Assembly: GCA_008638415.1 (NCBI GenBank)
Contig: VWVT01000001.1
Coordinates: forward strand, 248,001-312,000
DNA from: Nocardiopsis sinuspersici
Lineage (GTDB): Bacteria; Actinomycetota; Actinomycetes; Streptosporangiales; Streptosporangiaceae
Direction: 5' to 3'
DNA length: 64,000 bases
Part shown: positions 23,671-50,270 of the stretch, one piece after another
Position numbering within the stretch: the stretch's first letter is position 1
How the letters are laid out: the number at the start of each line of letters is the position of its first letter
The notes under the pieces: generated by a model
The model's database searches: none
What the model saw: only the letters and a program-made list of their open reading frames with translations
Told to the model about the DNA's origin: nothing
Made by a program: the position numbers and the translations under genes

Positions 23671-24006
23671 TCACTCCCCCCAGGACTCGTCGTACTCGGG
23701 ATGGGCCCGGTACACCCCCGCCAGGTACTTCACCGCCAGCCGCCAGGCCAGCAGCTCCGACCAGGGGTCGCCGCCGGACCGCCGGGGATCGGGGCGAAGG
23801 TGGGAGGAGGAGTGGGTGTCGGGGGTCAGAACCGGTTCGAGACTGCGCATACTCACGCTGTGGGCTTCGACGTATCCGCGGACGATCTTGCGTTTGGCCG
23901 CGACCTCCGCCAACGCCCGGTCCCGGCCGCGCGCTCCCGCGGGAGCGGTCTTCGACGCACGTTCGTCCTCGTCCAGACGCGCGTTCAGGAACTCGACGAT
24001 GGTCAA
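23671..24006 (-). CDS. DUF6221 family protein
   Basis: A 111-residue protein beginning MTIVEFLNARLDEDERASK, the conserved start of the actinobacterial DUF6221 family, and ending with the typical LAVKYLAGVYRAHPEYDESW. The start is a TTG at 24006 with AGGAG seven bases upstream; no ATG or GTG fits. Function is unknown. In many actinomycetes these small proteins occur in variable or phage-like regions. Here it lies 179 bases downstream of the GlnH-like gene on the same strand, and could be a last, loosely linked gene of that operon or a separate unit. Confidence 0.7.
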   Translation of the reverse strand: MTIVEFLNARLDEDERASKTAPAGARGRDRALAEVAAKRKIVRGYVEAHSVSMRSLEPVLTPDTHSSSHLRPDPRRSGGDPWSELLAWRLAVKYLAGVYRAHPEYDESWGE

Positions 24007-24185
24007 CGGACGACTCCTATCCTGTCCCCCCGTTGCTCTGCAAAGGATCAGTATCTGCCATATACCCCGCTTCGACCACACCCGAAGTCGTGTGGGGGAC
24101 ACCCGACCGATCCCGGCCACATCCCCGCCTCCGCCGGACCGTCCTCCTCTCCACCTCCGTTCCCACGGGCACACCCGTCCCTCTC

Positions 24186-25022
24186 TCAGACGCATCCCTC
24201 GAACTGGGGCACACTCTTCACCAGCTTGAGCTCGGCCTCGCCGAACCAGGTGTCCAGGAGCTCCCCGGCCCTGCCGCTCTGGTACATCCGGCTGATGGCG
24301 TCGTTGACGGCCTCGCAGCCGCGGATGTCGCCACGCGGCAGGCCGACGCCGTACTTCTCGTCGGTGAAGGGCTCGTCGACGAGGTGGAAGGAGGAGGGGT
24401 CCTCGGCGAGGAAGCCGGCCAGGATGAGGTTGTCGGTGGAGACGGCGTCCACCCTCCCCTCGCGGAGGTCCTCGATGCAGGCGCTGTAGCTGGGCGCCTC
24501 CGTCTTCCGGACGCTGATGCCCAGCCCCTCGGTGATGCGCGCGGCGGAGTTGGAGCCTTCGCCCTGGCACACCCGGAGGCCCTCCAGGTCGTGCACGCCC
24601 CGGATGCCGGAGTCCTCGGCACGCACCAGCACGTCCTGTTTGGCGACGTAGTAGGGGCCGCCGAAGGTCACCTGGGTCTTGCGTGCGGGGGTGATGGAGT
24701 AGGTGGCCACGACCATGTCCACATCACCCTCGATCAGCTTCTGCTCGCGGTTGGCGGAGGTGACGCCGGTGAACTCCACGTCCTCGGCGGACACCCCGAG
24801 CCGGTCGGCGATGTAGAGGGCCACGTCCACGTCGAAGCCCGTGATGTCGCCGTTCTCGTCCTCCAGCCCCAGTCCGGGCTGGTCGGTCTTGACTCCGACG
24901 GTCAGCGAGGTGGCGTCGGCCAGCGACTCCTGCTCGCCCAGCACCGTTGAGCAGGCGGGCAGTCCGAGGACCGCGACGGCGGCCAGGGCGGCCGCGGTGA
25001 TACGGCGGTGGCGGGACCTCAT
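24186..25022 (-). CDS. glnH: Amino-acid-binding lipoprotein, GlnH-like (glutamate/aspartate sensor candidate)
   Basis: A 278-residue lipoprotein with a signal peptide and lipobox LPAC (Cys24). It has a periplasmic-binding fold of the family-3 amino-acid type: SLTVGVKTDQPGLGL, ITGFDVDVALYIADRLG, VVATYSITPARK and FGGPYYVAKQDVLVR. Such proteins usually deliver glutamate or glutamine to an ABC permease, but no permease or ATPase gene is near. Instead it follows a GlnX-like membrane protein in an operon with a PknG-type kinase, the arrangement known from mycobacteria, where GlnH binds acidic amino acids outside and signals through GlnX to PknG. I therefore infer a sensor role. The ATG at 25022 is clear; 116 bases separate it from glnX. 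Confidence 0.82.
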   Translation of the reverse strand: MRSRHRRITAAALAAVAVLGLPACSTVLGEQESLADATSLTVGVKTDQPGLGLEDENGDITGFDVDVALYIADRLGVSAEDVEFTGVTSANREQKLIEGDVDMVVATYSITPARKTQVTFGGPYYVAKQDVLVRAEDSGIRGVHDLEGLRVCQGEGSNSAARITEGLGISVRKTEAPSYSACIEDLREGRVDAVSTDNLILAGFLAEDPSSFHLVDEPFTDEKYGVGLPRGDIRGCEAVNDAISRMYQSGRAGELLDTWFGEAELKLVKSVPQFEGCV

Positions 25023-25138
25023 CGGCCTGTTCCTTGTCTCTCAGGGGCTCTCGGGTTCTTCGGTGTTCGTCGTGTCCTCCGGAAAAGCCCTCGGAGGCTT
25101 CCCGGGGCTCCCGGTTCCCTCTCGCGGGCTTTCGGACG

Positions 25139-26635
25139 TCAGCGGTACTCGGCCAGCCGGGGGCGGACCCCGAGCACGACGAGGACGAGCAGGAGGAGCG
25201 TCCCCACGGGCAGCGTCCACGTCCAGGGCGCGAGCACCGCGTCACCGCGCTCGATCCCCTCCTCGAACGCGTCCATGTGCAGGCCGATCAGCTCGTCGAG
25301 TGCGGTCTCGTAGGTCCGGAAGGTGCCGTCCTCGATGTGGGCGACGCGCATGCGGATGTCGAGGGCCCCGGCCAGGTCACCGCTCCCGGCGGCCGAGCGC
25401 AGTGCCCGGTCCTCGCCTTGGAGGTCGTTGTAGGAGCCCAGCACCTCAGCGAGCGCGTCCCCCTGTCCGGGCAGCAGCGCTTCTTGGGCGCTCCTCCCCA
25501 GGTAGCCGAGTGTGCCCGGGTCCGGGTCGTCGGGGTCGGGCCTGTCCGGTCCCGGCAGGTCCGGGTAGGAGGCGGCCACCTCGTCGACGGCCTCGTAGTA
25601 GGCCTCCAGGTTGTTCGCGGGGCGGGACAGCACCTGCTGGGCCCACCCCAGGTACACCTGCTGGTAGTTGTCGGCGTTGGCCGGGTCGACCAGGTACCGG
25701 CTCTCGTACACCTGCATGTCGGTGGTGATCGCCCCGGCCCGGGAGAGTGACATGGCCGCGTCCAGGCCCTCCTCCTTGGCGTCATGCTGGTGGCCGTTGC
25801 TGGTGACCAGGGCGAGGACAACCCCGGCGGTGAGCAGGACGGCGCCCGCAGTCGCCGCGGTCAGCGAGGCGTTGAACCGCCGGCGGAACCGCGCACGCAG
25901 GTACATCTGGAGTCCGACCAGCGCGGCGACCGTCACCGCGCCGGCCGCGCCCACCCACAGCAGGCCGATCGTGACGGCCTCCTGGCGCTCCTCGTGGTTG
26001 GCGCGCACGCTCGCCGACGAGTCCAGCCCCAGGTTGAACGCCTTGGGAAGCAGCTCGGTGTGCATCAGCCGCGTGGCCCTGAGGTACGTCTCCAAGGCTT
26101 CCCGGTCCACCCGCCCCGGCGGGGCCTGTGCCTCGTCGTTGAGCAGGAGCGCCTCGGCGGCCCACTCCTCGTAGGCGCCCATCCCGGCCAGAACGGCCCG
26201 GACGTTGCACTCCTCCACGTCCTTGCACTTCTCCACGTAGTCGCCCTCGATCAGCGAGGCCACCTGTAGCAGGGCCTTGCCGGCCTGTGTCCGGCTGGCC
26301 TCGTACTGCTTCTGTACCTCCTCCCGGCCCGATCCGAGGTCGTGGGCGGTGCCCATGAGCAGCATGTCGGCCACACGGGCGTCCATGTCGGCGAGCGCCA
26401 GGTACAGCTCGGTGGTCGCCTCGGCCTGCGGCCCGTCGCGCCCGAGCACGTCGAGGCCGTCGCGTGCCTGGCCGAGGGTGAGGGCCGCCGAGCCGAACAG
26501 CCCGGCGATCGCCACCGCGCACACCGTGGTCAGCAGCCACACCCGGGCCGGGGTGGTGTCCAGCCGGCGGCGGGCGGCGGCGCCCCGTTCACGCGCACCG
26601 GTCCGCCGCGCCTGGTCGGAGTCAGGGGACGTCAA
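25139..26635 (-). CDS. glnX: GlnX-like four-helix membrane protein of the PknG pathway
   Basis: A 498-residue membrane protein. A basic cytoplasmic N-terminus precedes helix 1 (about residues 33-55). An outer domain of about 155 residues follows, with two Cys in EKCKDVEECN that could form a disulfide. Helices 2 and 3 (about 215-240 and 250-275) are joined by a short basic loop. A second outer domain of about 190 helical residues precedes helix 4 near the C-terminus. The two similar helical outer domains recall chemoreceptor-type four-helix bundles. Position between the FHA gene and glnH, in an operon with pknG, identifies it as GlnX-like. The start is TTG at 26635, with AAGGGG upstream and only six bases from the FHA stop. 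Confidence 0.72.
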   Translation of the reverse strand: MTSPDSDQARRTGARERGAAARRRLDTTPARVWLLTTVCAVAIAGLFGSAALTLGQARDGLDVLGRDGPQAEATTELYLALADMDARVADMLLMGTAHDLGSGREEVQKQYEASRTQAGKALLQVASLIEGDYVEKCKDVEECNVRAVLAGMGAYEEWAAEALLLNDEAQAPPGRVDREALETYLRATRLMHTELLPKAFNLGLDSSASVRANHEERQEAVTIGLLWVGAAGAVTVAALVGLQMYLRARFRRRFNASLTAATAGAVLLTAGVVLALVTSNGHQHDAKEEGLDAAMSLSRAGAITTDMQVYESRYLVDPANADNYQQVYLGWAQQVLSRPANNLEAYYEAVDEVAASYPDLPGPDRPDPDDPDPGTLGYLGRSAQEALLPGQGDALAEVLGSYNDLQGEDRALRSAAGSGDLAGALDIRMRVAHIEDGTFRTYETALDELIGLHMDAFEEGIERGDAVLAPWTWTLPVGTLLLLVLVVLGVRPRLAEYR

Positions 26636-26641
26636 CGGGGG

Positions 26642-27358
26642 TCACCCCTTCTGGAGGATGATGACGGTCCATGCGCCGACGTAGATCCGGTCACTGTCAT
26701 GCAGGGGAACCTCCACGTTGGGGGCGATGGGATTGGCGGTCCCGTTGATCGTGGTGCCGTTGGTCGATCCCGGGTCGAGGAGCGCCCATGCGCCGCCGGG
26801 CTTGGCGATCAGGACCGCGTGGACGTGGGAGATCGCGGGGTCGCCGCCGGGCCCGCCCAGGTCGATCTCGGGAACGAAGCCGCGGGAGGCGTTGCGCCGC
26901 CCGATGTGCACCCGGTCGCCCGTGAGCGCCACCCGGCGCTGCGCGCTGCCCGCGGGGAAGGAGATCCGGGTGGAGTCGAGCATGCCCTGGTCGACCATGT
27001 ACTGGTAGTACGCGGGATCGGCGGCCACGATCGCGCGCCAGCGCGGTCCGGCCGACGCGCCTTCCGCCCCCGGCTGCCCGTGCTGGTGGCTCCCGGACTG
27101 CGAGGCGAAGTCGAACCCGCACTCCTCGCAGAACCGACCCGCCCGCGAGGTGCCGCACTCGGGGCAGGGGCCTCCCCTGGGCCCGCTCGGCGGGCGGCGC
27201 GGAGCGGGGGCCCGCGCCGGGGACAGGGGCGGCGTCGGCGGGGTCGGATGCCGGTGTGACGGGGGTGGCGGCGTCGGGGAACGGGTCTGGAGGCGCAGTC
27301 CGCAGACGTCGCAGAAGTCGGTCGCCGTGGAGCGGTGCCCGGAGGGGCAACTCGGCAT
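26642..27358 (-). CDS. FHA-domain protein with two zinc ribbons
   Basis: A 238-residue protein. The N-terminal ribbon uses Cys4, His8, Cys16 and Cys19; a second ribbon uses Cys65, Cys68, Cys77 and Cys80, separated by a Pro-rich linker. From about residue 105 it is an FHA domain that should bind phosphothreonine: HIGRRN with Arg154, ISHVHAVL around residues 176-183, and GSTNGTTIN with Asn200. By analogy with the mycobacterial PknG substrate GarA it may be the reader or output of the kinase, although GarA has a single short phosphorylated N-terminus and not ribbons. The ATG at 27358 is behind GGAGGGACCC. It lies between the VWA and GlnX genes. Confidence 0.85.
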   Translation of the reverse strand: MPSCPSGHRSTATDFCDVCGLRLQTRSPTPPPPSHRHPTPPTPPLSPARAPAPRRPPSGPRGGPCPECGTSRAGRFCEECGFDFASQSGSHQHGQPGAEGASAGPRWRAIVAADPAYYQYMVDQGMLDSTRISFPAGSAQRRVALTGDRVHIGRRNASRGFVPEIDLGGPGGDPAISHVHAVLIAKPGGAWALLDPGSTNGTTINGTANPIAPNVEVPLHDSDRIYVGAWTVIILQKG

Positions 27359-27367
27359 GGGTCCCTC

Positions 27368-28729
27368 CTACCCGGGTACGGGGGCACCGCCGGTGTCCGG
27401 CCCGCCCTGTCGGGGCCGGGTCCGTACGGTCCGGGTCGAGTTGGTGTCCAGGGTCATCTCGTCGACCTTGGCCACACCGGGCTTGAGCCGAACGGTTCCG
27501 GCCACGGGGTCGACCACGTCGACGACCCTGCCGAGGAGCCTCGCGGTCTCCTCGTTGCCCGACTCGTGGGCGAGTGCGACGGCTCGGCCGAGCCGTGTGG
27601 TGGCGGTGTCGTCGTCGCCGTCGCGACGGGCGGCGAGCCCGTCCTGAACGGCCTGGGCCAGTTCGGCCTGGCCGGTGTAGTGGGCCACCCGGAAGTCGAT
27701 CTCCGTGGCCCTGCCCTCGTCCGGCGTCCACTCCGCGAGGATGTTGCCCGAGGCGAGGACCCGCTCCGGAGCGCCGTCGGTCCCGGGAAGCACCACGCGC
27801 ACCCATCCGGCGCGCAGTCGGCGGCCGGGATCGCCCGGCGGCACCTCGACGCACACGTGGTAGTCGCGGCTCTCGGTGCCCCAGGAACCGGTGGGGTAGT
27901 CGCCCGTCTGGGGCGTGCGTTCCACCTCGCGCCCGGTGAGGTCCCGCACGGTGGGCGCGACCTGCTTGACGTGGCGCACCACGGAGCCCCGGGGCGTCCA
28001 CAGGCGCAGCGCGACGTCGGCGACGGCCTTGCCCATGGACGCCCGGGTCATCGCCCGGAAGTCGGCGGCCATGTCGCCGGGGTCGGCGATGACGCCGGGG
28101 CCTCCGCCGAGCAGGGCGGCGTCGATCCGGCGCAGCTCGTCGACCTTCCAGTCGGTGCCCACTCCCCGGCAGTCGCACACGAACGCGCCGGTGACCCGGT
28201 TCAGGGCCCGCTCGAAGTCCTCGTCGGCCTCGTTGTTCTGTCCGTCGGTGAGCAGGATGGCGTGTTTGACACCGTCCCCGACCGTGGCGAACAGCTCGGC
28301 CGCGCGGGTCAGCCAGGTGCCCATGCGGGTGCCGCCGCCGGCGCGCAGGCGGCCGATGGCCGCCAGCGCCTCGGCGCGTGTGGTGTCGTCGGCCCGCGCC
28401 ATGCCCGCTCCGTCGCCGGGGTAGACCACGTGGGCCCTGGTGTGGCCGGAGACCACCGCGAAGCGGACACCCTCGCGCAGGGTCTCGACGGCGGCCCGGG
28501 CCGCATGCTTGGCGGCGTCGAGCCTCTCCCCGTACATCGACCCCGAGGTGTCGACGATGACGGCCTCGGCGGCGTTCACCGACGCGCCCGTCGGCACGGG
28601 GCCGTGGGAGGTGACGCCGACGATCGCGTGCACCTCGCGCGCGCCGATCGGCAGGAACCTGTTCTGGTCGACCTCGATCCGGAAGGCCGGCTCGTCGGCA
28701 CGGGCGGCGCGGTCAGTCGTGTCCGGCAC
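27368..28729 (-). CDS. von Willebrand factor type A domain protein
   Basis: A 453-residue cytoplasmic protein. The VWA domain spans about residues 53-230, with a complete metal-ion-dependent adhesion site: DTSGSM at 60-65, a Thr in GGGTRMGTW, and Asp in LLTDGQNN. The C-terminal half is beta-rich, then helical (QAELAQAVQDGLAARRDGDD). It probably makes regulated protein contacts, serving as scaffold in the kinase/phosphatase system. Its GTG start overlaps the 3' end of the PP2C gene by 17 bases, so the two are translationally coupled. A Thr/Arg-rich tail (TLDTNSTRTVRTRPRQ) could offer phosphorylation sites. Similar VWA genes sit beside PP2C and FHA genes in other bacterial Ser/Thr phosphorylation clusters. 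Confidence 0.83.
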   Translation of the reverse strand: MPDTTDRAARADEPAFRIEVDQNRFLPIGAREVHAIVGVTSHGPVPTGASVNAAEAVIVDTSGSMYGERLDAAKHAARAAVETLREGVRFAVVSGHTRAHVVYPGDGAGMARADDTTRAEALAAIGRLRAGGGTRMGTWLTRAAELFATVGDGVKHAILLTDGQNNEADEDFERALNRVTGAFVCDCRGVGTDWKVDELRRIDAALLGGGPGVIADPGDMAADFRAMTRASMGKAVADVALRLWTPRGSVVRHVKQVAPTVRDLTGREVERTPQTGDYPTGSWGTESRDYHVCVEVPPGDPGRRLRAGWVRVVLPGTDGAPERVLASGNILAEWTPDEGRATEIDFRVAHYTGQAELAQAVQDGLAARRDGDDDTATTRLGRAVALAHESGNEETARLLGRVVDVVDPVAGTVRLKPGVAKVDEMTLDTNSTRTVRTRPRQGGPDTGGAPVPG

Positions 28730-29987
28730 GGGAACCCCCTGGAGGTACGGGAACGACGACGACGGTGATGTTGTCCTTGCCGCCCGCCCGGAGGGCGAGG
28801 CTGACGTAGGCGCGGGCGGCGTCGCGGGGTCTGGCGCCCGCTTCGGGTACGGCGTCGGTCAGGTCCTGTGCCCCGGGGTAGTAGTTCCACAGGCCGTCGC
28901 TGCACAGCACGACGGCGCCGGGGCCGGTCGGGGTGACGGTGGAGATGTGCGCGTCGATCTCTCCGGAGTCCGCTCCCATCCACGCGATGAGTGCGTGGGC
29001 GTTGGCCGAGCGCATCGCCTCCTCCCGGGAGAGGGTGCCCATCTGCACCATCGCCTCGCTCCAGGAGTCGTCCTTGGTCAGGAGCGCGGAGGCGCTGGAG
29101 GAGGGGCCGCCGGAGAGCCAGTAGGCACGGCTGTCGCCGACCCAGCCGACGGTGACGGTGCCCGTGGCGGGGTCGACCACCGCGGAGACGAAGGTGCAGG
29201 CGGGTGCGGAGCCGGCCGAGTCGGCGATCCCGGCGACCGCCTCCGCGGCCCTGGTCATCGCCGCCCCGGTGGCCTCGCGGGGGTCGGCGCCCCCGCGTAC
29301 CCGTTCCGCCAGAACCGCCACGCCGGTCTCGGCGCTGACCCGGGAGGCCTCGTCCGAGCGCGGTGAACTGGAGACACCGTCGCAGACCACCGCGCAGACC
29401 ACTCCGGGCGCGTGGGGGGCGTCGGCGTCGATCACGCGGATCGCCATGGCGTCCTCGTTGCGCTTGTGCCGCAGTCCCCGGTCGCTGACGCCGACGGCGG
29501 CGTGCGTGCGCACCTCGACGTGGTCGCGGCCGGTGGGCTGGAGGAGGCCGCACTTCTCGCAGTAGCCGTCGCCCACCCGGCCGGGGCACCACACGCACAG
29601 TCCGGGGCCGGCGGGCGGTGCCGGCGGGTCGCTCCGGGTGGCGAGGGGGGCGGCCAGGCTCACCTGCGGCGCCGTCGGAGCGCCCTCGGTCGGGACCAGG
29701 CCCGGGCGCTCGTCCGACACCGCGTTCAGGCTCACCTGCGGTGCGGTGGGGGCTCCCTCACCCGGCACCAGGTCCGGACGTGTGCCGCCGCGGGACGCGT
29801 CCGGGGCGGGGCCGTCAGGCGGCGCCGCGCCGGACATGCTCGCCTGGGGAGCCGTGGGCACCGAGTCGGGGTGCCCCGCGGGCACGGCCCCGACGTCCTC
29901 GGGGAGGGGGCGGCCGCACCCCTCGCAGAAGGCGTCTCCCACAGCCACCCTGTCCGAGCAGGCAGGGCAGGTCCGCACCTTGGTCAT
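28713..29987 (-). CDS. PP2C-type Ser/Thr protein phosphatase with two zinc ribbons
   Basis: A 424-residue protein. Ribbon 1 uses Cys7, Cys10, Cys21 and Cys24; ribbon 2 uses Cys131, Cys134, Cys143 and Cys146. Between them lies a Pro/Ala-rich linker with three repeats of TAPQ (residues 45-48, 81-84, 105-108), the last two within the longer APTAPQVSL. The phosphatase domain starts near residue 160 with SDRGLRHKRNEDA, VVCDGVSSSP (metal Asp203) and VGWVGDSRAY, and ends GKDNITVVVVPV. It should reverse the action of the adjacent PknG-like kinase. The ATG at 29987 with GGGGGAAC upstream is preferred over an in-frame GTG at 30008 that overlaps the kinase stop. Confidence 0.88.
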   Translation of the reverse strand: MTKVRTCPACSDRVAVGDAFCEGCGRPLPEDVGAVPAGHPDSVPTAPQASMSGAAPPDGPAPDASRGGTRPDLVPGEGAPTAPQVSLNAVSDERPGLVPTEGAPTAPQVSLAAPLATRSDPPAPPAGPGLCVWCPGRVGDGYCEKCGLLQPTGRDHVEVRTHAAVGVSDRGLRHKRNEDAMAIRVIDADAPHAPGVVCAVVCDGVSSSPRSDEASRVSAETGVAVLAERVRGGADPREATGAAMTRAAEAVAGIADSAGSAPACTFVSAVVDPATGTVTVGWVGDSRAYWLSGGPSSSASALLTKDDSWSEAMVQMGTLSREEAMRSANAHALIAWMGADSGEIDAHISTVTPTGPGAVVLCSDGLWNYYPGAQDLTDAVPEAGARPRDAARAYVSLALRAGGKDNITVVVVPVPPGGSRAGHD

Positions 29988-30004
29988 CGCCGTTCCCCCG
30001 TTCC

Positions 30005-32440
30005 TCACAGCAGCGTCACAGGGCGTAGGGAGTTGGCCCTGTCGATGAGTCCGTAGCGTTCCGAACGCACGGTGGCGCGCTGGGCCAGAGCGCGGTAGCG
30101 GCGTTCCAGGTTGGCCCGCACGCCCTCCTCCGTGAGCGGGCCGCCGAGCAGTTCCTCCCGGGCCGTGTCCCGGCCTCCCGCGTGGAGCCAGTCCAGGGCC
30201 GACTCCAGTACCTGGACGGCCAGGCGGTCGGCGGACTCACCGTCCAGGCCGATCCGCTCCAGGCGCCGTCCGGCCCGCACGAGGTCGGCGGCGTCCGTGC
30301 CGTGGTGCTGGGCCGCGAGCACGGCGACCAGCGCGGTCTGGGCGTGGACGTGGAGGCTGGACAGTTCCGGGACCGTGTCCAGGACGGCGATGGCCTCGGC
30401 CCGGTTCCCCTGGGCCAGGCGGATGCGGGCCAGGCCGAAGGCGGCGCTGACGAAGGAGTGGTCGGTCCTCCAGGCCGTCTGGAACTGGCGGGCCGCGGTC
30501 TCGTGCTCGCCGGTCCGCTCGCAGGCCAGGGCCAAGCCCAGCTTGGGCGCGGTCTCCCCGGGCAGGTGGTCGTACAGCTCGTCGAAGTGGTCGCGGGCCT
30601 CGCGGAACCGGCCGGTGCTCAGCTCGGCCACCGCCAGGTACCACATGGTGCGCCAGTCCCCGGGGACCATCACGCTGAACCGCTGGAGGGCGTCCATGGC
30701 CTCGCCGTGGCGACCGGCGGCGATGAGCGACCGGGCCAGCATCAGCAGTGTCTCGGGGGTGGGCTCGGGCATGGAGCGCAGCGCGGGGACGAGGTCCTCG
30801 GGGGCGAGCGCCTGGAAGCCGCGCAGGTGCTGGGCGGCCGGGTCGTTCGGGTCAATGAGGGGCGCGGGCAGCAGCGCGGCCGCGTCGTTGGGCGGGGGCG
30901 GCGCGAGCAGGCGGTCGGCGTTGTGGGCGCCGACGGCACGGCCGATGGCGGAGTTCTCGCCGCCGAAGAGGGTGGAGGCAGCCGGGTGCGGTACGCCCTC
31001 CATGTCGGAGAGGACTTCGCGCAGCACCCCGGTGAGCTGGTCGATCATGTCGTGGGCGTCGTGGAAGCGCAGCTCGGGCTCGCTGTGGGTGGAGCGGCGC
31101 AGCAGCCGGTCGAAGGACTCGTGGCGCCGGAGCAGTGGTACCGCCCCGCGCGGCGGAATGCCGTGCGGGTGCTCGCGCATGAAGCTGAAGCGGAAGCTGA
31201 GCACGGCCAGGGCGCGGCCCACCGAGTACAGGTCGGCGCTGACGGTGGGGCCGGGATCGCGCAGCTCGTCCTCGGGCACCCGGTAGCCGGGGGTGGTGTA
31301 GACGGGGCTGACGGTGTCGTCCATGCGCCGCACGCCGCCCAGGTCGATGAGCTTGATCTGCTCCTCGCTCTGGATGACGTTGTCGGGCTTGAAGTCGCAG
31401 TAGAGCAGGCCCTTGGAGTGCAGGTGGCCCAGGGCGCGCAGGACCTCCAGGCCGTAGGAGATGACCTGTGGCAGGGGCAGGACCGCGTCGGGGCCGTCCT
31501 CGCGGCGCTCGACGAGCAGCTCGCGCAGGGACTTGCCCCCCACGTACTCCATGACGATGAGGCCGCCGGGGATGCCGGTGCGCGGGTCCGGGTGCTGGGA
31601 GAAGTTGATGATCTTGACGATGTTGGGGTGCTCGACCTTGGAGAGGAACGCGCGTTCGGCGGCGGCCGCCTTGTGCGCCTCCGCGTCACCGGCGTTGAGC
31701 AGGCCCTTGAGGACCACCCAGCGGTCGTTGACGTTGCGGTCGCGTGCCAGGTAGATCCAGCCGAGGCCTCCGTGGGCCAGGCAGCCGAGCACCTCGTACT
31801 GCCCACCGACCATGTCACCGGGGGAGAGCTTGGGGGTGAAGGAGAACTGGGTCCCGCACTTGCGGCAGAAGCCCTCGGTGCGGCCGGGCTGGCCGTCCCG
31901 GGTGCGGCCGACCCTCTCACCGCAGTTGCCGCAGAAGCGGTTCTTCTCCGCGACGGCGGGGTTGTCCATGACGGCTTCGGCGGGGTTCCGGTAGGGGACC
32001 AGGGGCACCTGGACCATGCCCATGCCGAGCGTGCCGCGCGAGGACCGACGGCTGCCGCGCCCCGCGCTCCCGCCGCCGGCACCGGTACCCGCGGTGCCGG
32101 AGGCACTCCCGGGACCGGAGCGGCCGGAGAGCCTGACGTTGCCGGAGACGGGATGCGAGTGCACCGGATCGCCGCTGACGGGGTCCCGGCCCGAGGGGCC
32201 GGAAGGCGGCCACTGGTCGGGGGCCTCGCCCCGGCCGCCGTGCGGGGCACCCGGGACGGAGGGGTGGGGCGGCCTCCTCGGTCCCGGAGCCCGCGGGGGC
32301 GGGCCGAGGGACGCCTGCGGGCCCGAGCCGTGCCCGGGGAGGGCCTGCGGAGGTCCCGCCTCCACGGGGGCCAGTCCGCACACGCCGCAGAAGCCGTCCT
32401 CGATCAGGCCGTGGCAGCCGGGGTCCGCGCACTTGGTCAT
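30005..32440 (-). CDS. pknG: PknG-like Ser/Thr protein kinase with zinc ribbon, rubredoxin-like domain and TPRs
   Basis: An 811-residue soluble kinase. An N-terminal ribbon has Cys4, Cys9, Cys18 and Cys21. After a Pro/Gly/Ser-rich linker comes a rubredoxin-like metal site with Cys170, Cys173, Cys192 and Cys195. The kinase domain covers about residues 210-470, with catalytic Lys245 in VVLKGLLNAGD. The catalytic loop reads YCDFKPDN (347-354) instead of HRDLKxxN, and the metal loop is IDLGG instead of DFG, the signature of PknG. A C-terminal tetratricopeptide-like helical region (about 575-811) completes the PknG plan. PknG phosphorylates FHA proteins that inhibit 2-oxoglutarate dehydrogenase and activate glutamate synthesis. 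Its ATG overlaps the preceding stop as ATGA. Confidence 0.92.
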   Translation of the reverse strand: MTKCADPGCHGLIEDGFCGVCGLAPVEAGPPQALPGHGSGPQASLGPPPRAPGPRRPPHPSVPGAPHGGRGEAPDQWPPSGPSGRDPVSGDPVHSHPVSGNVRLSGRSGPGSASGTAGTGAGGGSAGRGSRRSSRGTLGMGMVQVPLVPYRNPAEAVMDNPAVAEKNRFCGNCGERVGRTRDGQPGRTEGFCRKCGTQFSFTPKLSPGDMVGGQYEVLGCLAHGGLGWIYLARDRNVNDRWVVLKGLLNAGDAEAHKAAAAERAFLSKVEHPNIVKIINFSQHPDPRTGIPGGLIVMEYVGGKSLRELLVERREDGPDAVLPLPQVISYGLEVLRALGHLHSKGLLYCDFKPDNVIQSEEQIKLIDLGGVRRMDDTVSPVYTTPGYRVPEDELRDPGPTVSADLYSVGRALAVLSFRFSFMREHPHGIPPRGAVPLLRRHESFDRLLRRSTHSEPELRFHDAHDMIDQLTGVLREVLSDMEGVPHPAASTLFGGENSAIGRAVGAHNADRLLAPPPPNDAAALLPAPLIDPNDPAAQHLRGFQALAPEDLVPALRSMPEPTPETLLMLARSLIAAGRHGEAMDALQRFSVMVPGDWRTMWYLAVAELSTGRFREARDHFDELYDHLPGETAPKLGLALACERTGEHETAARQFQTAWRTDHSFVSAAFGLARIRLAQGNRAEAIAVLDTVPELSSLHVHAQTALVAVLAAQHHGTDAADLVRAGRRLERIGLDGESADRLAVQVLESALDWLHAGGRDTAREELLGGPLTEEGVRANLERRYRALAQRATVRSERYGLIDRANSLRPVTLL

Positions 32441-33732
32441 CTGCTCACACCACCCTCGCTCTCGCCGTCTGATGCGCCCGCGTCCGGTGTGGTTCTGTTC
32501 ACAGGGGCGCCGGTCCCTCCGATCTCCTGGAGCGCGCGCCGGTACGAGGACAGGGCCGCCGTGGCCGCGCGCAGGTCGCAGGGCGCGGTCCACAGCGCCC
32601 AGTGCGCCACACGGTGGAGTCCGACCAGCCGTCCGTCCCCGGCGACCCCGAGCCGGACCGCACGGGCCCGGTAGGCGTCCAGCCGCCCGCGGAGCTCGGC
32701 GCGGCGCTCCAGGAGCCCGGTGAGGTCGGCCTCGCGCTCACGCGCGTCGTCGGAGGCCTCGTGGACGGCGCGCTGCAGTGAGCCGAAGCGCGCGCCGAGT
32801 TCGCGCCACCGCCCCCGTGAGCGCAGGGCGTCCATGTCGGCGACACCGGTCCGCAGCGCGGGAACGTGGTCGGGGACCCCGACCGCGGGGGGCGAGGAGA
32901 TCTTGGCGACCACCTGTTCGCGCAGTCGACGGGCGCGGGCGAGGACCTCGCCGACGTCGTCGATGGCGGAGCGGAGCCGCTCGACGCTCTCGTCGTAGGA
33001 GTCGCGCATGCGCAGGGCGTCGCGGAGCTCGCCGCGTACGCGCTCCAGCCGGAGGCGCAGCCGTTCGAGGGAGGAGGCGTCCACGTGCCCGTCCTCGACG
33101 AGTGAGAGGGGATCGCGCCGCACCGTGGCGCCCACCGCGTCCAGGTCGGCGCGCAGGGACTCGTGCTCGTCCTCGCCGAGCCCGACCAGGTCGGAGAAGG
33201 TGCAGATCTCGTGCCACATCGCGTCGAGTTCGGCCAGGCGCGGGTGGAGGGCGTCCCAGGCCGTCTCGACGGCCGAGATGACCTCGGTGGCCTCCTCGTA
33301 GTCGGCCGACATCCGGGCGACGGCGGCGGCGAGGGTGGTGGACTCCCCGCCGGCGTGGAGCAGGCCCCGTTCGCGCAGCGGGACCTCTCTGGCGGGCAGC
33401 GGCACGGAGGCGTCGTTGAGCAGGGAGGTCAGGAGGGCCTGGTCCTCGTGGCCTCCGCCTCCGGAGACACGGAGCTCCTGGATCCGGTCGACGACGCGGC
33501 GGAACGCGTCGTAGACCGCCCACAGGTTGTGGACGTGCTCGCTGGCGTGTTCCCAGCGCCGCCGGGTGCGTCCGACGAGATCGGCTCCCCGGAGCATCCG
33601 GTGGCCGACGTGGCCGTCCAGGTCGGCGAGGTCGAGGGCGATCCGGTCGGCCTCTCCGCGCACCCGGTTGAGCGCGTGGTCGATGCCCTCCCAACTCATG
33701 GGCGGCGTGTTCGCCCCAGACGCGCTGGCCAC
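32437..33732 (-). CDS. Coiled-coil protein of unknown function, first gene of the pknG operon
   Basis: A 431-residue soluble protein, almost wholly alpha-helical, with long heptad-rich stretches (for example ALNRVRGEADRIALDLADLD and ERLRLRLERVRGELRDALRM). There is no membrane segment, no Cys motif and no known catalytic motif. It opens the operon and its stop overlaps the kinase start by four bases, so it is made in step with the kinase and probably binds it or a neighbour. The GTG at 33732 has GGGAGGAA about 11 bases upstream; an ATG at 33699 (MSWEGIDHAL) is a second choice. A 223-base gap upstream should hold the operon promoter. Confidence 0.72.
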   Translation of the reverse strand: MASASGANTPPMSWEGIDHALNRVRGEADRIALDLADLDGHVGHRMLRGADLVGRTRRRWEHASEHVHNLWAVYDAFRRVVDRIQELRVSGGGGHEDQALLTSLLNDASVPLPAREVPLRERGLLHAGGESTTLAAAVARMSADYEEATEVISAVETAWDALHPRLAELDAMWHEICTFSDLVGLGEDEHESLRADLDAVGATVRRDPLSLVEDGHVDASSLERLRLRLERVRGELRDALRMRDSYDESVERLRSAIDDVGEVLARARRLREQVVAKISSPPAVGVPDHVPALRTGVADMDALRSRGRWRELGARFGSLQRAVHEASDDAREREADLTGLLERRAELRGRLDAYRARAVRLGVAGDGRLVGLHRVAHWALWTAPCDLRAATAALSSYRRALQEIGGTGAPVNRTTPDAGASDGESEGGVSR

Positions 33733-46965: not shown

Positions 46966-48690
46966 TCAGCCGGCGGGTTCGAAGCTCCGGGACATCCGGT
47001 CCAGCAGCGCCCGGTTGGCCTCGGGGTCACCGTTGTCGGCCACCAGGAACAGGGCGTAGCCCTTGTCCTCGGTGTGGAAGCCCCGGTTCACGGCGTGCAT
47101 GCCGCCGCTTTCGAAGGTGAACTCCCAGTCGGCGGCGCTGACGTAGTCCTCCGCCCAGTCGGCCTCCACGTCCTCGATGCCGATGAGCTCGTAGCCGCCG
47201 AAGTTGCCCCGGGCGGAGGGCTCCAGGGCACGCCAGTCGTCCCCGGCGTCGGCACCCGGGTCGTCGGTCTGGTCGACCAGCAGGTATCCGCCGTCGGGGT
47301 TGTGGAAGTAGACCATGTGGTCCCGCCGCTCGACCTCCCAGTCCTTCGGGACGTCCACGGAGAACCCGCTGGGGTCCTCGTGGCGGGTCAGGAAGTCCCA
47401 CCTGCCGTCTTCCTCGTCGTCCTCCTCGGACGGCTCGGCGGAGGGCTCCTCGGACGGTTCCGCGGGATCGGACGCCTCCTCCGGCGTACCGGACTCCTCC
47501 CCGCCGGTGGGACCGGGGTCGACGGCGGCCTGCTGACCGGAGCCGTCGACCAGCCCGGCCCCGGAGCCTCCGGGGCGGTTCATGCTCACCAGGACGCTGG
47601 TGGTGGCGCCCACGACCAGCAGTACGACCACGGCCGCGACGACCAGCAGCGTCCTCACGCGGGACGCGGCGCCCCCCTCGCGGTGGGAGACGGCGGGCGG
47701 CGGGCCGGATCCGGCCCGTCCGGGGCCGGGTTCCGACGCGGCCGCTCCGGTGCGCGTGGCCGGGCCGGTTCCACCGGTCTCCTCCGGTTCCCCCGAGCCC
47801 TCCGGCTCCTCCGCCGACGCGGTGACGGCCGGGGCCGGGGCGGCCGCCGGGGGACTCCCGGTGCCGTCCCGAGCCTCGCGTAGGAGGGAGCGCACCTCGC
47901 CGACCGACGGCCGGTCCTGCGGGCGCTTCTCGCACAGGGCCTCCAGGACCGGGCGCAGCGGACCGGCGTTGGGCGCCTCCGGCAGGTCCTGGGTGACGAT
48001 CGCGGTCAGCGTCGCCATCGGGGTCGGCCGGTCGAACGGCAGCGTGCCCTCCACCGCCTGGTAGAGGGTGACGCCCAGGGCCCACATGTCCGAGGCCGGG
48101 GTGGCCGCGTTCCCGTGCGCGACCTCCGGGGCCAGGTAGCTCGGGGATCCGATCAGCAGGCCGGTGCTGGTCAGGTGGGTGGCGCCGTCCAGGTGGGCGA
48201 TGCCGAAGTCGGTGAGGACGGCCCGGTCGTTCCCGGCGATGAGCACGTTGCCCGGTTTGATGTCGCGGTGCACGATGCCGCGGGCGTGCGCCTCGGCCAG
48301 GCCCGCGGCCATCTGCTCGCCGATGTCGGCGGCCCGCCGGACCGGCAGCGCCCCGTCGTCGCGGATGAGGTCGCCCAGGGAGGGGCCGCGGACGAGCTCC
48401 ATGACGATCCACGGGCGGCCGTCCTCCTCGGCCACGTCGAACACGGTGATGATGGCGGGGTGGCTGAGCTGCGCCGCGCTGCGCGCCTCGCGCAGCATGC
48501 GGGTGCGCAGCACCTCGACCTCGTGCGCGGGCAGGTTCGGCGGTGTGGTCAGCTCCTTGACCGCGACCGGCCGGTCCAGGAGGGTGTCGGTGCCCTGCCA
48601 CACCCGGCCCATGCCACCGGCACCGATGACCTCGTCCAGGCGGTACCGGTTGACCAGGAGACGACCGGGATCGGCTTCCGAGCTGTTCAT
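46966..48690 (-). CDS. Membrane receptor Ser/Thr protein kinase
   Basis: A 574-residue kinase of the PknB/Hanks type. The cytoplasmic kinase domain (about residues 14-275) has GAGGMGRVW, VAVKEL, the active loop IVHRDIKPGNVL and LTDFGIAHLD, all complete. After a Pro/Ala/Glu linker comes one membrane helix (about 355-380, LLVVAAVVVLLVVGATTSVL). The outer part begins with a strongly acidic linker (PAEPSEEPSAEPSEEDDEED) and ends in a folded domain of about 130 residues (FSVDVPKDWEVERRDHMVYF) resembling the lipoprotein-like extracellular domains of other actinobacterial kinases. No PASTA repeats. The ATG at 48690 is behind GAGGAA. Target and ligand are unknown. Confidence 0.92.
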   Translation of the reverse strand: MNSSEADPGRLLVNRYRLDEVIGAGGMGRVWQGTDTLLDRPVAVKELTTPPNLPAHEVEVLRTRMLREARSAAQLSHPAIITVFDVAEEDGRPWIVMELVRGPSLGDLIRDDGALPVRRAADIGEQMAAGLAEAHARGIVHRDIKPGNVLIAGNDRAVLTDFGIAHLDGATHLTSTGLLIGSPSYLAPEVAHGNAATPASDMWALGVTLYQAVEGTLPFDRPTPMATLTAIVTQDLPEAPNAGPLRPVLEALCEKRPQDRPSVGEVRSLLREARDGTGSPPAAAPAPAVTASAEEPEGSGEPEETGGTGPATRTGAAASEPGPGRAGSGPPPAVSHREGGAASRVRTLLVVAAVVVLLVVGATTSVLVSMNRPGGSGAGLVDGSGQQAAVDPGPTGGEESGTPEEASDPAEPSEEPSAEPSEEDDEEDGRWDFLTRHEDPSGFSVDVPKDWEVERRDHMVYFHNPDGGYLLVDQTDDPGADAGDDWRALEPSARGNFGGYELIGIEDVEADWAEDYVSAADWEFTFESGGMHAVNRGFHTEDKGYALFLVADNGDPEANRALLDRMSRSFEPAG

Positions 48691-49061
48691 GAAGGCGCGG
48701 TTCCTCTGCGGGGAAAGTGCGGTGTGGAGGCTACGGGGGCACTGCCCTGGGGCGGGAGGGTGTGTACGGGCGGAAGGGGGCACGGGCCCGCCGGGCGGAC
48801 CCATGGCCGTGGAGGCGTGTATCGCGAGTACCCGCCCTGCTACGCGAAGGGCGGCACCCACCACACACGCCCTAGAGAGTCTAGAAGTCCGCGACCACTG
48901 GTGGCGCTGTCCGCCACGGTGGTATGTGTGTTTCCCCGGTACTTCGGATCCGCCCACAACCCCCTGAAATGCAGATATCCCGCCGGAAACGTCGCAGGAC
49001 GCCGTTCCGGCGGGATCGGGATCGGGCGTGTCCGGTCCCGGAGGGCGGATCATCCCGGGGA
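48691..49061. other. Non-coding region between the receptor kinase and the P450 pair
   Basis: These 371 bases hold no convincing gene. A 13-base inverted repeat CTAGA-GAG-TCTAG is at 48872-48884, in what should be the kinase promoter region, and a 12-bp stem hairpin at 48977-49016 ends the P450 transcript. Confidence 0.55.
48977..49016 (-). terminator. Hairpin terminator of the P450 operon
   Basis: ATCCCGCCGGAA (48977-48988) pairs perfectly with TTCCGGCGGGAT (49005-49016) around a 16-base loop, 46 bases after the stop of the downstream P450 gene on the minus strand. Confidence 0.72.
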
Positions 49062-50270
49062 TCACCGCAGGCGCACGGGAAGGGCCTCCACGCCCGAGCC
49101 GATGATCGACGGGAGCGGGACCAGCTCCTCGTCCGCCACCGCGACGTCGAGCCCGGGGAAGCGCCCGAACAGGCGCGGCAGCGCTTCGAGGACCTCCATA
49201 CGGGCCAGGCTGGCTCCCAGGCAGTAGTGCCGCCCGTGGGAGAAGGTCAGGTGCGAGGTGTCCTCGCGGGTGACGTCGAACAGGTGCGCCGTCGGCCCGT
49301 AGCGCTCCTCGTCCCGCCCGGCCGAGCCGTAGCCCATCAGCAGCGGCTCACCCGCCGGGACCGCGACCCCGGCCAGCTCGACGTCCTCGGTCGTGTAGCG
49401 CATCGGTACGAACTCGCCCGGCCCGTCCCAGCGCAGTACCTCCTCCACGGCCCTGGACCACTCGACCTCGCCCCGCAGGACCATGTCGAGCTGGTCGCGG
49501 TGGCCGACCAGCGCCCGCACCGCGTTGGCGATGAGGTTCATCGTGGTCTCGTAGCCCGCGCTGATGATGAGTACCAGGCTCCAGATCAGCTCGTCCTCGC
49601 TGAGCCTGTCGTCCTCGTCGCGGGCGGCGATGAGTGCGGAGGTCAGGTCGTCGCCCGGTTCGGCGCGCTTGGCCCCGACCAGCTCGGTGAGCAGGCCCCA
49701 CATCTCCATGAAGGTGGTCATCGCGTCCTCGGGCGTGACGCTCTGGTCGAAGAAGACCCCGACCAGCCGGTGCAGCTTCGGCCGCGCCTCCTCGTCCAGT
49801 CCGAACAGGTCGCTGATCACCGTCATCGGCAGCGGCTGGGCCAGCAGCGCCTTGAGGTCGACCACACCGTCCGCGCTCGCGGCGGCCTCGGCCTCCACCC
49901 GGTCCAGCAGCCCCTCGACGATGGCGACGACCCCCTCGCGCATGTGCTCGATCCGGCGCGGGGTGAACGCCTTGGAGACGAGCTTGCGCAGGCGCGTGTG
50001 CTCCTCACCGTCGCTGGTCAGCATGTTCTCGGCGATGATCCAGGAGATCAGCGGCCAGTCCGGCGGGATCTCACCGGCGTTGAACGCCCGCCAGTGCTTC
50101 TTGTCCTTCTGCACGCGCTGGTCGGCCAGGGCCTCGGTGACCGCCGCGTGCGTGGTCACGACCCACGCAGCAACCTCACCAGGAAGTTCGACAGGGACGA
50201 CAGGCCCGAGCTCACGGAGGTGGGCTGCTTGGGCTCGGAGGTTTCCGGGTGCGATGCGGACGGGCTCCAA
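49062..50270 (-). CDS. Cytochrome P450, CYP154-like
   Basis: A 402-residue P450 monooxygenase. The heme ligand is Cys350 in FSHGRHYCLGASLAR. The I helix has ISAGYETTMNLI with the acid-Thr pair, and the K helix has the normal ExxR motif in AVEEVLRWDGP. The N-terminus is short and starts at a TTG (50270) behind AAGGAAC. The reading frame overlaps the upstream P450 gene by 115 bases; the residues in the overlap include VVPVELPGEVAAWVVTTH, which belong to the fold, so the overlap is real. The pair order, a CYP157-like gene followed by a CYP154-like gene, matches Streptomyces conservons. Substrate is unknown. Confidence 0.88.
   Translation of the reverse strand: MEPVRIAPGNLRAQAAHLRELGPVVPVELPGEVAAWVVTTHAAVTEALADQRVQKDKKHWRAFNAGEIPPDWPLISWIIAENMLTSDGEEHTRLRKLVSKAFTPRRIEHMREGVVAIVEGLLDRVEAEAAASADGVVDLKALLAQPLPMTVISDLFGLDEEARPKLHRLVGVFFDQSVTPEDAMTTFMEMWGLLTELVGAKRAEPGDDLTSALIAARDEDDRLSEDELIWSLVLIISAGYETTMNLIANAVRALVGHRDQLDMVLRGEVEWSRAVEEVLRWDGPGEFVPMRYTTEDVELAGVAVPAGEPLLMGYGSAGRDEERYGPTAHLFDVTREDTSHLTFSHGRHYCLGASLARMEVLEALPRLFGRFPGLDVAVADEELVPLPSIIGSGVEALPVRLR

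Follow-up and report, generated by a model that had tools for sequence, protein, structure and literature searches.

The PknG Receptor Pathway and Related Kinase Cassettes

The closest described relative of the locus considered here is the GlnH-GlnX-PknG pathway of actinobacteria, whose three-gene operon, genetics and GlnH structure are already published, as the accessible parts of PMC6069109, PMC9769921 and PMC8546545 report. The operon is presented in PMC6069109 as conserved in Actinomycetales, with STRING synteny in its Fig. 2B; in PMC9769921 the GlnX of Corynebacterium glutamicum is modelled with two four-helix bundles and the GlnX-PknG contact is termed elusive. The words “phosphatase” and “VWA” are absent from the accessible text of PMC6069109, and the running text of the literature searched holds no account of a PP2C, VWA, FHA or coiled-coil (CC) protein in a pknG operon. 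Work on the PknG receptor in that literature rests on three-gene species. A second group of related systems comes from Kaur et al. (PMC7159879), whose accessible main text describes zinc-ribbon kinase-PP2C-vWA cassettes in GAP1-N2 systems, with PknG unnamed.

The window analysed here is a stretch of 64,000 nucleotides from Nocardiopsis sinuspersici, and the minus strand between 33732 and 24186 carries a longer version of the PknG operon. Our main reading, held at a probability of roughly 60%, is that this operon is an extended PknG pathway in which GlnH signals to GlnX and GlnX to PknG, with its likely eraser, a PP2C, and its likely reader, an FHA protein, encoded in the same run. The genes, their domains and intact active-site residues, their co-occurrence across numerous families and the phylogeny of the kinase, all described below, are direct computations.

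Architecture of the Seven-Gene Locus

Seven tightly packed open reading frames (ORFs) follow one another in the order CC, PknG, PP2C, VWA, FHA, GlnX and GlnH; the coordinates bear out the earlier note in placing all of them on one strand, in this order, with overlaps or short gaps.

32437..33732, minus strand: CC protein, 431 aa, all-helical coiled-coil, first gene of the run
30005..32593, minus strand: PknG-type kinase, rubredoxin-kinase-TPR, probable start ATG 32440 overlapping the CC stop
32363..32440, minus strand: N-terminal zinc ribbon of PknG, C-x4-C-x8-C-x2-C (coordinates counted from the ORF)
31826..32041, minus strand: rubredoxin domain of PknG (PknG_rubred)
31190..31798, minus strand: kinase domain of PknG, with intact catalytic Lys, catalytic Asp and Asp of the DLG motif
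30014..30985, minus strand: TPR domain of PknG (PknG_TPR)
28713..30008, minus strand: PP2C phosphatase, PP2C_2 at 48.4 bits, four metal-binding Asp kept
29916-29969 and 29550-29597, minus strand: two N-terminal zinc ribbons of the PP2C
29655-29861, minus strand: linker of the PP2C, three TAPQ-[AV]-S repeats
27368..28729, minus strand: VWA protein, VWA_3 at 55.6 and VWA_3_C at 81.4 bits, MIDAS residues intact
26642..27358, minus strand: FHA protein, N-terminal ribbon-like cysteines, FHA domain at 40.7 bits, not GarA
27119-27166, minus strand: clear ribbon of the FHA protein
26675-26908, minus strand: C-terminal FHA domain, Arg, Ser, His and Asn kept
25139..26635, minus strand: helical membrane protein of the GlnX family, modelled with two outer bundles; its start codon is uncertain
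25142..25171, minus strand: C-terminal tail of GlnX, GVRPRLAEYR, after the last membrane helix, predicted cytoplasmic
24186..25022, minus strand: GlnH-like lipoprotein, family-3 solute-binding, SBP_bac_3 at 101 bits
24951-24962, minus strand: lipobox of GlnH, LPAC

The listed start of the PknG ORF (32593) probably lies 51 codons too early, the in-frame ATG at 32440 opening the zinc ribbon; if PknG begins at this ATG, the CC/PknG junction is an ATGA overlap. As the ORFs are listed, PknG overlaps PP2C by 4 nt and PP2C overlaps VWA by 17 nt, while 9 nt separate VWA from FHA and 6 nt separate FHA from GlnX. The sole real gap of the run, 116 nt between GlnX and GlnH, could hold a promoter for glnH; a simple scan, of limited power in an actinobacterium of high GC content, returned no terminator on the minus strand and no sigma70-like promoter on either strand. 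The seven-gene set recurs over many families and its grouping is therefore not due to chance, and the flanking genes (n = 7) match only 13-30 of 140 loci, those listed being mainly Nocardiopsis. The DUF6221 ORF behind glnH (23671-24018) was considered as an eighth gene and rejected as part of the core, since its listed matches (20 of the 23 loci matched) all come from the Nocardiopsis part of the sample.

Six of the seven proteins exceed curated Pfam or NCBIfam cut-offs, and profile searches uphold the identities first assigned to PknG, the GlnX-family protein and the GlnH-like lipoprotein. Pfam also finds both the phosphatase and the FHA gene within the run, unlike in mycobacteria, as had been claimed. 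PknG_TPR has a single match in the source genome. At 46966-49347 of the window, a further ORF matched by the PknG profile (194 bits) is probably another Ser/Thr kinase.

The Kinase and Its Four Accessory Proteins

In PknG, the three Pfam domains all score above their cut-offs (PknG_rubred 90.1, Pkinase 91 and PknG_TPR 329 bits), and the best structural relative is M. tuberculosis PknG (2pzi), aligned over residues 188-860 with an E-value of 5.8e-152. Catalytic residues were scored by alignment, in which the catalytic Asp is kept in all 139 kinases. The PknG linker contains a weaker SGPQAS stretch akin to the repeats of the PP2C linker. Those TAPQ-x-S repeats were entertained as a general docking motif and set aside, since the 20 rows (out of 70 for PP2C) that contain T-x-PQ-x-S belong without exception to the Nocardiopsis part of the sample.

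Active-site residues of the accessory proteins are kept as well: in the PP2C, the first two metal-binding Asp are found in 102 of 102 aligned sequences and the last two in 100 of 102, the two others being gaps; in the VWA protein, the MIDAS Asp is found in 97 of 99, the remaining two again being gaps; and in the FHA protein, Ser, His and Asn are invariant over all 98 sequences, 93 of which also have the Arg. The C-terminal VWA_3_C domain has no second match in the source genome beyond the VWA protein of the operon. The CC protein gives a confident AlphaFold2 model (mean pLDDT 92.7); its sequence is without a Pfam match at E<=0.05, and its fold has no convincing match in the PDB (best E-value 0.12). 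It has 941 relatives; among the 120 listed, those with names are called hypothetical or uncharacterized protein, and two carry a stray precomputed Pfam domain.

Judged by linkage and domain content, PP2C would act as eraser, the FHA protein as reader and the CC and VWA proteins as scaffold. The scaffold role that the earlier note gave to the VWA protein was worded too strongly; this gene is missing in 4 of 12 uncut genomes of the same genus and undetected in 8 of the 61 uncut loci of the named set defined below.

A Receptor Half Related to GlnX and GlnH

The membrane protein scores 262.7 bits against the GlnX family NF058618, above the cut-off of 250, which confirms the proposed homology to GlnX, and 30.3 bits against the characterised-GlnX equivalog NF041460, far below the required 780. 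Its AlphaFold2 model (pLDDT 91.6) is helical with two outer bundles; the fold search matches it to the ligand domain of the chemoreceptor Tsr (TMt 0.59, probability 0.82), but with a weak E-value of 1.6 and at rank 39, 38 rows standing above it. The C-terminal tail of GlnX is conserved throughout the survey: R-[LIV]-x-[ED]-[YF] occurs at or near the C-terminus of 122 of 122 GlnX proteins, in seven-gene and three-gene forms alike. R-[LIV]-x-[ED]-[YF]-x closes the sequence in 113 of them, and in nine the motif lies slightly further in, with several residues after it. We infer that this tail touches the TPR domain of PknG.

The last protein has both a lipobox and the family-3 solute-binding fold. 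Numbering in M. tuberculosis GlnH relies on a +41 shift set here, which fits all seven contact residues, whose roles are taken from the accessible part of PMC6069109. Five of the seven are conserved (R92, T107, S109, R114 and D197, corresponding to R147, T162, S164, R169 and D250), while Y179 replaces W232 and A106 replaces K161. Sensing of aspartate or glutamate, as suggested for this lipoprotein, is thus plausible from the pocket sequence, the five kept contacts favouring it and the Tyr and Ala replacements weighing against it. An ABC permease does not adjoin the lipoprotein, as had been noted: there is no BPD_transp_1 domain within about 40 kb on the contig, the nearest lying at C1:231412-232002, and 69 such matches are found elsewhere in the source genome. 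Across the loci surveyed, GlnH and GlnX adjoin in both gene orders.

GarA and the Likely Metabolic Target

Among the six FHA matches of the source genome, the GarA/OdhI ortholog is P0011 at C9:268602 (E 9.4e-47), outside the operon. P0011 has an N-terminal zinc ribbon and a phosphosite-like TSTIS where GarA of the Mycobacteriaceae-like family f4 has ETTS. The idea that the operon's own FHA protein is GarA, or its equivalent, fails on this ortholog, and the sole PDB match of the operon protein is 1uht (E 1.8e-4). The gene for 2-oxoglutarate dehydrogenase is likewise outside the operon, at C3:331699. The genome thus combines linked GlnH, GlnX and PknG genes and a binding protein without a permease beside it with GarA and 2-oxoglutarate dehydrogenase, both encoded elsewhere; because of the latter two, the relay is not self-contained. 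The part of that earlier description which stands is the presence of eraser and reader in the operon; the likely target, GarA with 2-oxoglutarate dehydrogenase, would act in trans. Control of GarA, like the sensing of acidic amino acids, is proposed here by homology. Six genomes of the window's family (G407, G358, G398, G306, G499 and G346) carry a ribboned GarA and no PknG_TPR match; another kinase, if any, would act on GarA there.

Zinc Ribbons on Kinase, Phosphatase, FHA Protein and GarA

In the source genome, the kinase, the phosphatase, the FHA protein and GarA all carry N-terminal zinc ribbons. PknG has one or more ribbons ahead of its rubredoxin domain in 95 of 101 scored loci where it is accompanied by two or more partner genes, and in none of the 16 scored partner-less kinases of f4, the scoring having left out 9 of the 139 kinases. 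A crude N-terminal ribbon pattern is present in 70 of 70 PP2C rows and 53 of 68 FHA protein rows. For GarA, scored by profile search, a ribbon is found in all 28 genomes where PknG has at least two partner genes and in 9 of 30 others, six of these nine having no PknG match; it is found in none of the 12 f4 genomes among those others, including G574, which has a seven-gene copy and yet a ribbon-less GarA. A strict partnership between the GarA ribbon and the seven-gene operon is therefore rejected: with the nine other genomes and G574 taken into account, lineage is no worse a predictor of the ribbon than the operon is, and the ribbon may follow lineage rather than docking.

Distribution over Actinobacteria

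Of 394 genomes surveyed in the class, 152 have a PknG_TPR match at E<=1e-15. Partner genes were called with profiles built from these loci themselves, at bit-score thresholds set by the author. The named set comprises the 80 loci whose PknG most resembles that of the window, 19 of them near contig ends and 61 uncut; named loci and numbered genomes partly overlap, so that their counts are not additive, and loci outside the window's family (f1) were hand-picked from lists.

At least three of CC, PP2C, VWA and FHA lie beside PknG in 58 of the 61 uncut named loci and all six partners in 41; VWA is undetected in 8, PP2C in 6, CC in 5, GlnH in 5 and FHA in 3. Within f1, PknG is present in 34 of 48 genomes, and in 29 of these 34 the best locus has at least three of the four accessory genes. 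The other five comprise G319 and G609, cut by contig ends, G476 with two, G364 with one and G442 with none. In f3, probably Streptomycetaceae, 43 genomes have PknG; the best copies of 28 of these were examined, and all six partners accompany 28 of 28, in the order GlnX-GlnH-CC-PknG-PP2C-VWA-FHA; three weaker extra copies (L137, L138 and L178) are without the set. Full sets are found in five of six uncut loci of f78, in the one locus of f74 and in the one genome of f42, which belongs to another class and has GlnX-GlnH on the opposite strand; the single f93 locus has PP2C only and both f97 loci have the three-gene form. In f4, 18 loci in 12 genomes divide into 12 three-gene loci, five with PknG alone and one seven-gene locus. 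The assignment of f3 to Streptomycetaceae and of f4 to Mycobacteriaceae is a probable one, made among other features from the GarA motif ETTSVFR and from clustering with named Nocardia. GlnX-GlnH come first in Nocardia, Phytohabitans and f3 and last in Nocardiopsis and Actinomadura, with constant content. The parts were thus not gathered locally, as first supposed: the synteny survey shows a conserved unit in several families and two classes.

Some loci depart from the full set. Second copies within f1 retain three (L174), two (L173) or one (L176 and L177) of the four accessory genes; the last two, in G630 and G451 of the window's genus, form a reduced PknG-VWA-GlnX set in which GlnH, PP2C, FHA and CC are undetected and whose kinase retains the zinc ribbon. 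In Nocardiopsis-type loci (L009, L017, L018, L027, L028, L034, L242, L243 and L247), VWA is missing between PP2C and FHA or fragmentary (25 bits in L034, 92 bits in L017). In Actinomadura-type loci (L042, L053, L060, L074, L075, L173 and L174), PP2C is undetected and VWA, CC and GlnX are kept. In f3, L138 (5781-13367) has a second PknG-like kinase, whose neighbours are a VWA protein ending in a zinc ribbon, a family-1 solute-binding protein and a trypsin-like protein, possibly another system of binding protein, kinase and VWA.

Kinase Tree and History

The PknG tree is a quick, unrooted search over 79 rows in which L158 is a long branch. The three-gene and lone kinases of f4 form one group (support 100) whose neighbour is a seven-gene Nocardia copy (99); two further three-gene branches are those of f97 and G442, and other kinases fill the rest. 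Three changes suffice to place the presence or absence of CC, PP2C, VWA and FHA on this tree. Had the three-gene form come first, the order CC-PknG-PP2C-VWA-FHA would have arisen more than once or moved as a block; hence loss is simpler. The mycobacterial three-gene operon is probably a reduced form of a seven-gene ancestor, on an unrooted tree that does not separate gain from loss. A bolder version, to which we give slightly less than even odds, holds that the textbook GlnH-GlnX-PknG system is a stripped remnant. On this view the ancestral form, also the commonest, is a nutrient sensor of seven proteins, assembled through zinc ribbons and equipped with its own eraser and reader, whose ribbon tag would be one that, shared with the off-operon GarA, was lost from both kinase and target in the mycobacterial branch.

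Proposed Mechanism and Alternative Readings

The seven-gene unit is real, conserved and active-looking, and it extends the known pathway. In the scheme that we propose, acidic amino acids outside the cell are the predicted ligands of the GlnH-like lipoprotein, which, once loaded, would contact GlnX at its two outer helical bundles; from there the signal would pass to the short cytoplasmic parts of GlnX, including the conserved C-terminal tail, which would dock on the TPR domain of PknG and switch the kinase. PknG would then phosphorylate the off-operon GarA ortholog, relieving the inhibition of 2-oxoglutarate dehydrogenase, and probably also sites within its own complex, which the FHA protein would read and the PP2C would reset. 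The CC and VWA proteins would keep the set together, and the N-terminal zinc ribbons of kinase, phosphatase, FHA protein and GarA are likely docking tags.

This raises the question as to whether the output is that of the known pathway. A diverged PknG module could keep a GlnH-GlnX-like receptor half while its kinase acts on the FHA, VWA and CC proteins and serves, in place of GarA and the TCA cycle, some different process such as envelope growth or development. PP2C, FHA, VWA and CC mostly stay with PknG, GarA is also found in genomes with no PknG match, and G574 combines a three-gene copy (L150) with a seven-gene copy (L153); two such loci also occur in several Actinomadura genomes, and this pairing within one genome suggests specialisation. 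Against these points, the window's genome has a single PknG together with a GarA bearing the phosphosite-like TSTIS stretch, and we regard a diverged output as unlikely, but as the alternative to be taken most seriously.

Far less probable is a kinship with the kinase-PP2C-vWA cassettes of the GAP1-N2/GTPase conflict systems, which would make the operon a stress or immune device that has borrowed PknG and its receptor. The actinobacterial zinc-ribbon kinase that the accessible part of Kaur et al. (2020; PMC7159879) describes as linked to a PP2C and to a standalone vWA, and the absence of PknG from 14 of the 48 genomes of the window's own family would suit such a device; on the other side, Pfam reports no GTPase or FNIII domain in the seven genes or in eight flanking ORFs, the name PknG is absent from the accessible main text of that paper, and PADLOC, applied to the six proteins from CC to GlnX, finds only a generic kinase domain and nothing in the other five. 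The least probable reading, that the lipoprotein serves an ABC transporter encoded elsewhere and sits here for co-regulation with amino-acid uptake, could draw on the 69 distant permease matches, the 116-nt gap before glnH and the five of 61 uncut named loci with undetected GlnH, and is opposed by the lack of such a permease within about 40 kb, the adjacency of GlnH and GlnX in both gene orders and the genetics that tie this pair to PknG in mycobacteria and corynebacteria, as the accessible parts of PMC6069109 and PMC9769921 report.

If the extended PknG pathway is the form that many PknG-bearing actinobacteria use, then the pathway gains named proteins for three roles: a candidate for the eraser, another reader of phosphopeptides and likely scaffolds. 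The conserved C-terminal tail of GlnX is a specific candidate for the contact with the TPR domain of PknG, and one open to test.

Comparison with Known Systems

By comparison with the GlnH-GlnX-PknG-GarA/OdhI pathway of M. tuberculosis, M. smegmatis and C. glutamicum, the locus likewise encodes a solute-binding lipoprotein, a GlnX-family protein and PknG in one run, in a genome with GarA and 2-oxoglutarate dehydrogenase. Unlike the mycobacterial operon, it has four extra genes (CC, PP2C, VWA and FHA); unlike the described pathway, ribbons are found on kinase, phosphatase, FHA protein and GarA, its GlnX falls below the equivalog cut-off and two residues of the GlnH pocket are changed. With the actinobacterial GAP1-N2 GTPase cassettes, as the accessible part of PMC7159879 presents them, it shares a linked zinc-ribbon kinase, PP2C and standalone vWA, and differs in the absence of any GTPase or FNIII domain by Pfam, in its full PknG with TPR domain and in the linked GlnX and GlnH. 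Its phosphatase resembles the PstP/Stp1 type in the PP2C fold and the four metal-binding Asp (NF033484, 95 bits) and departs from it in scoring below the NF033484 cut-off of 230, in carrying two zinc ribbons and in being encoded together with PknG.
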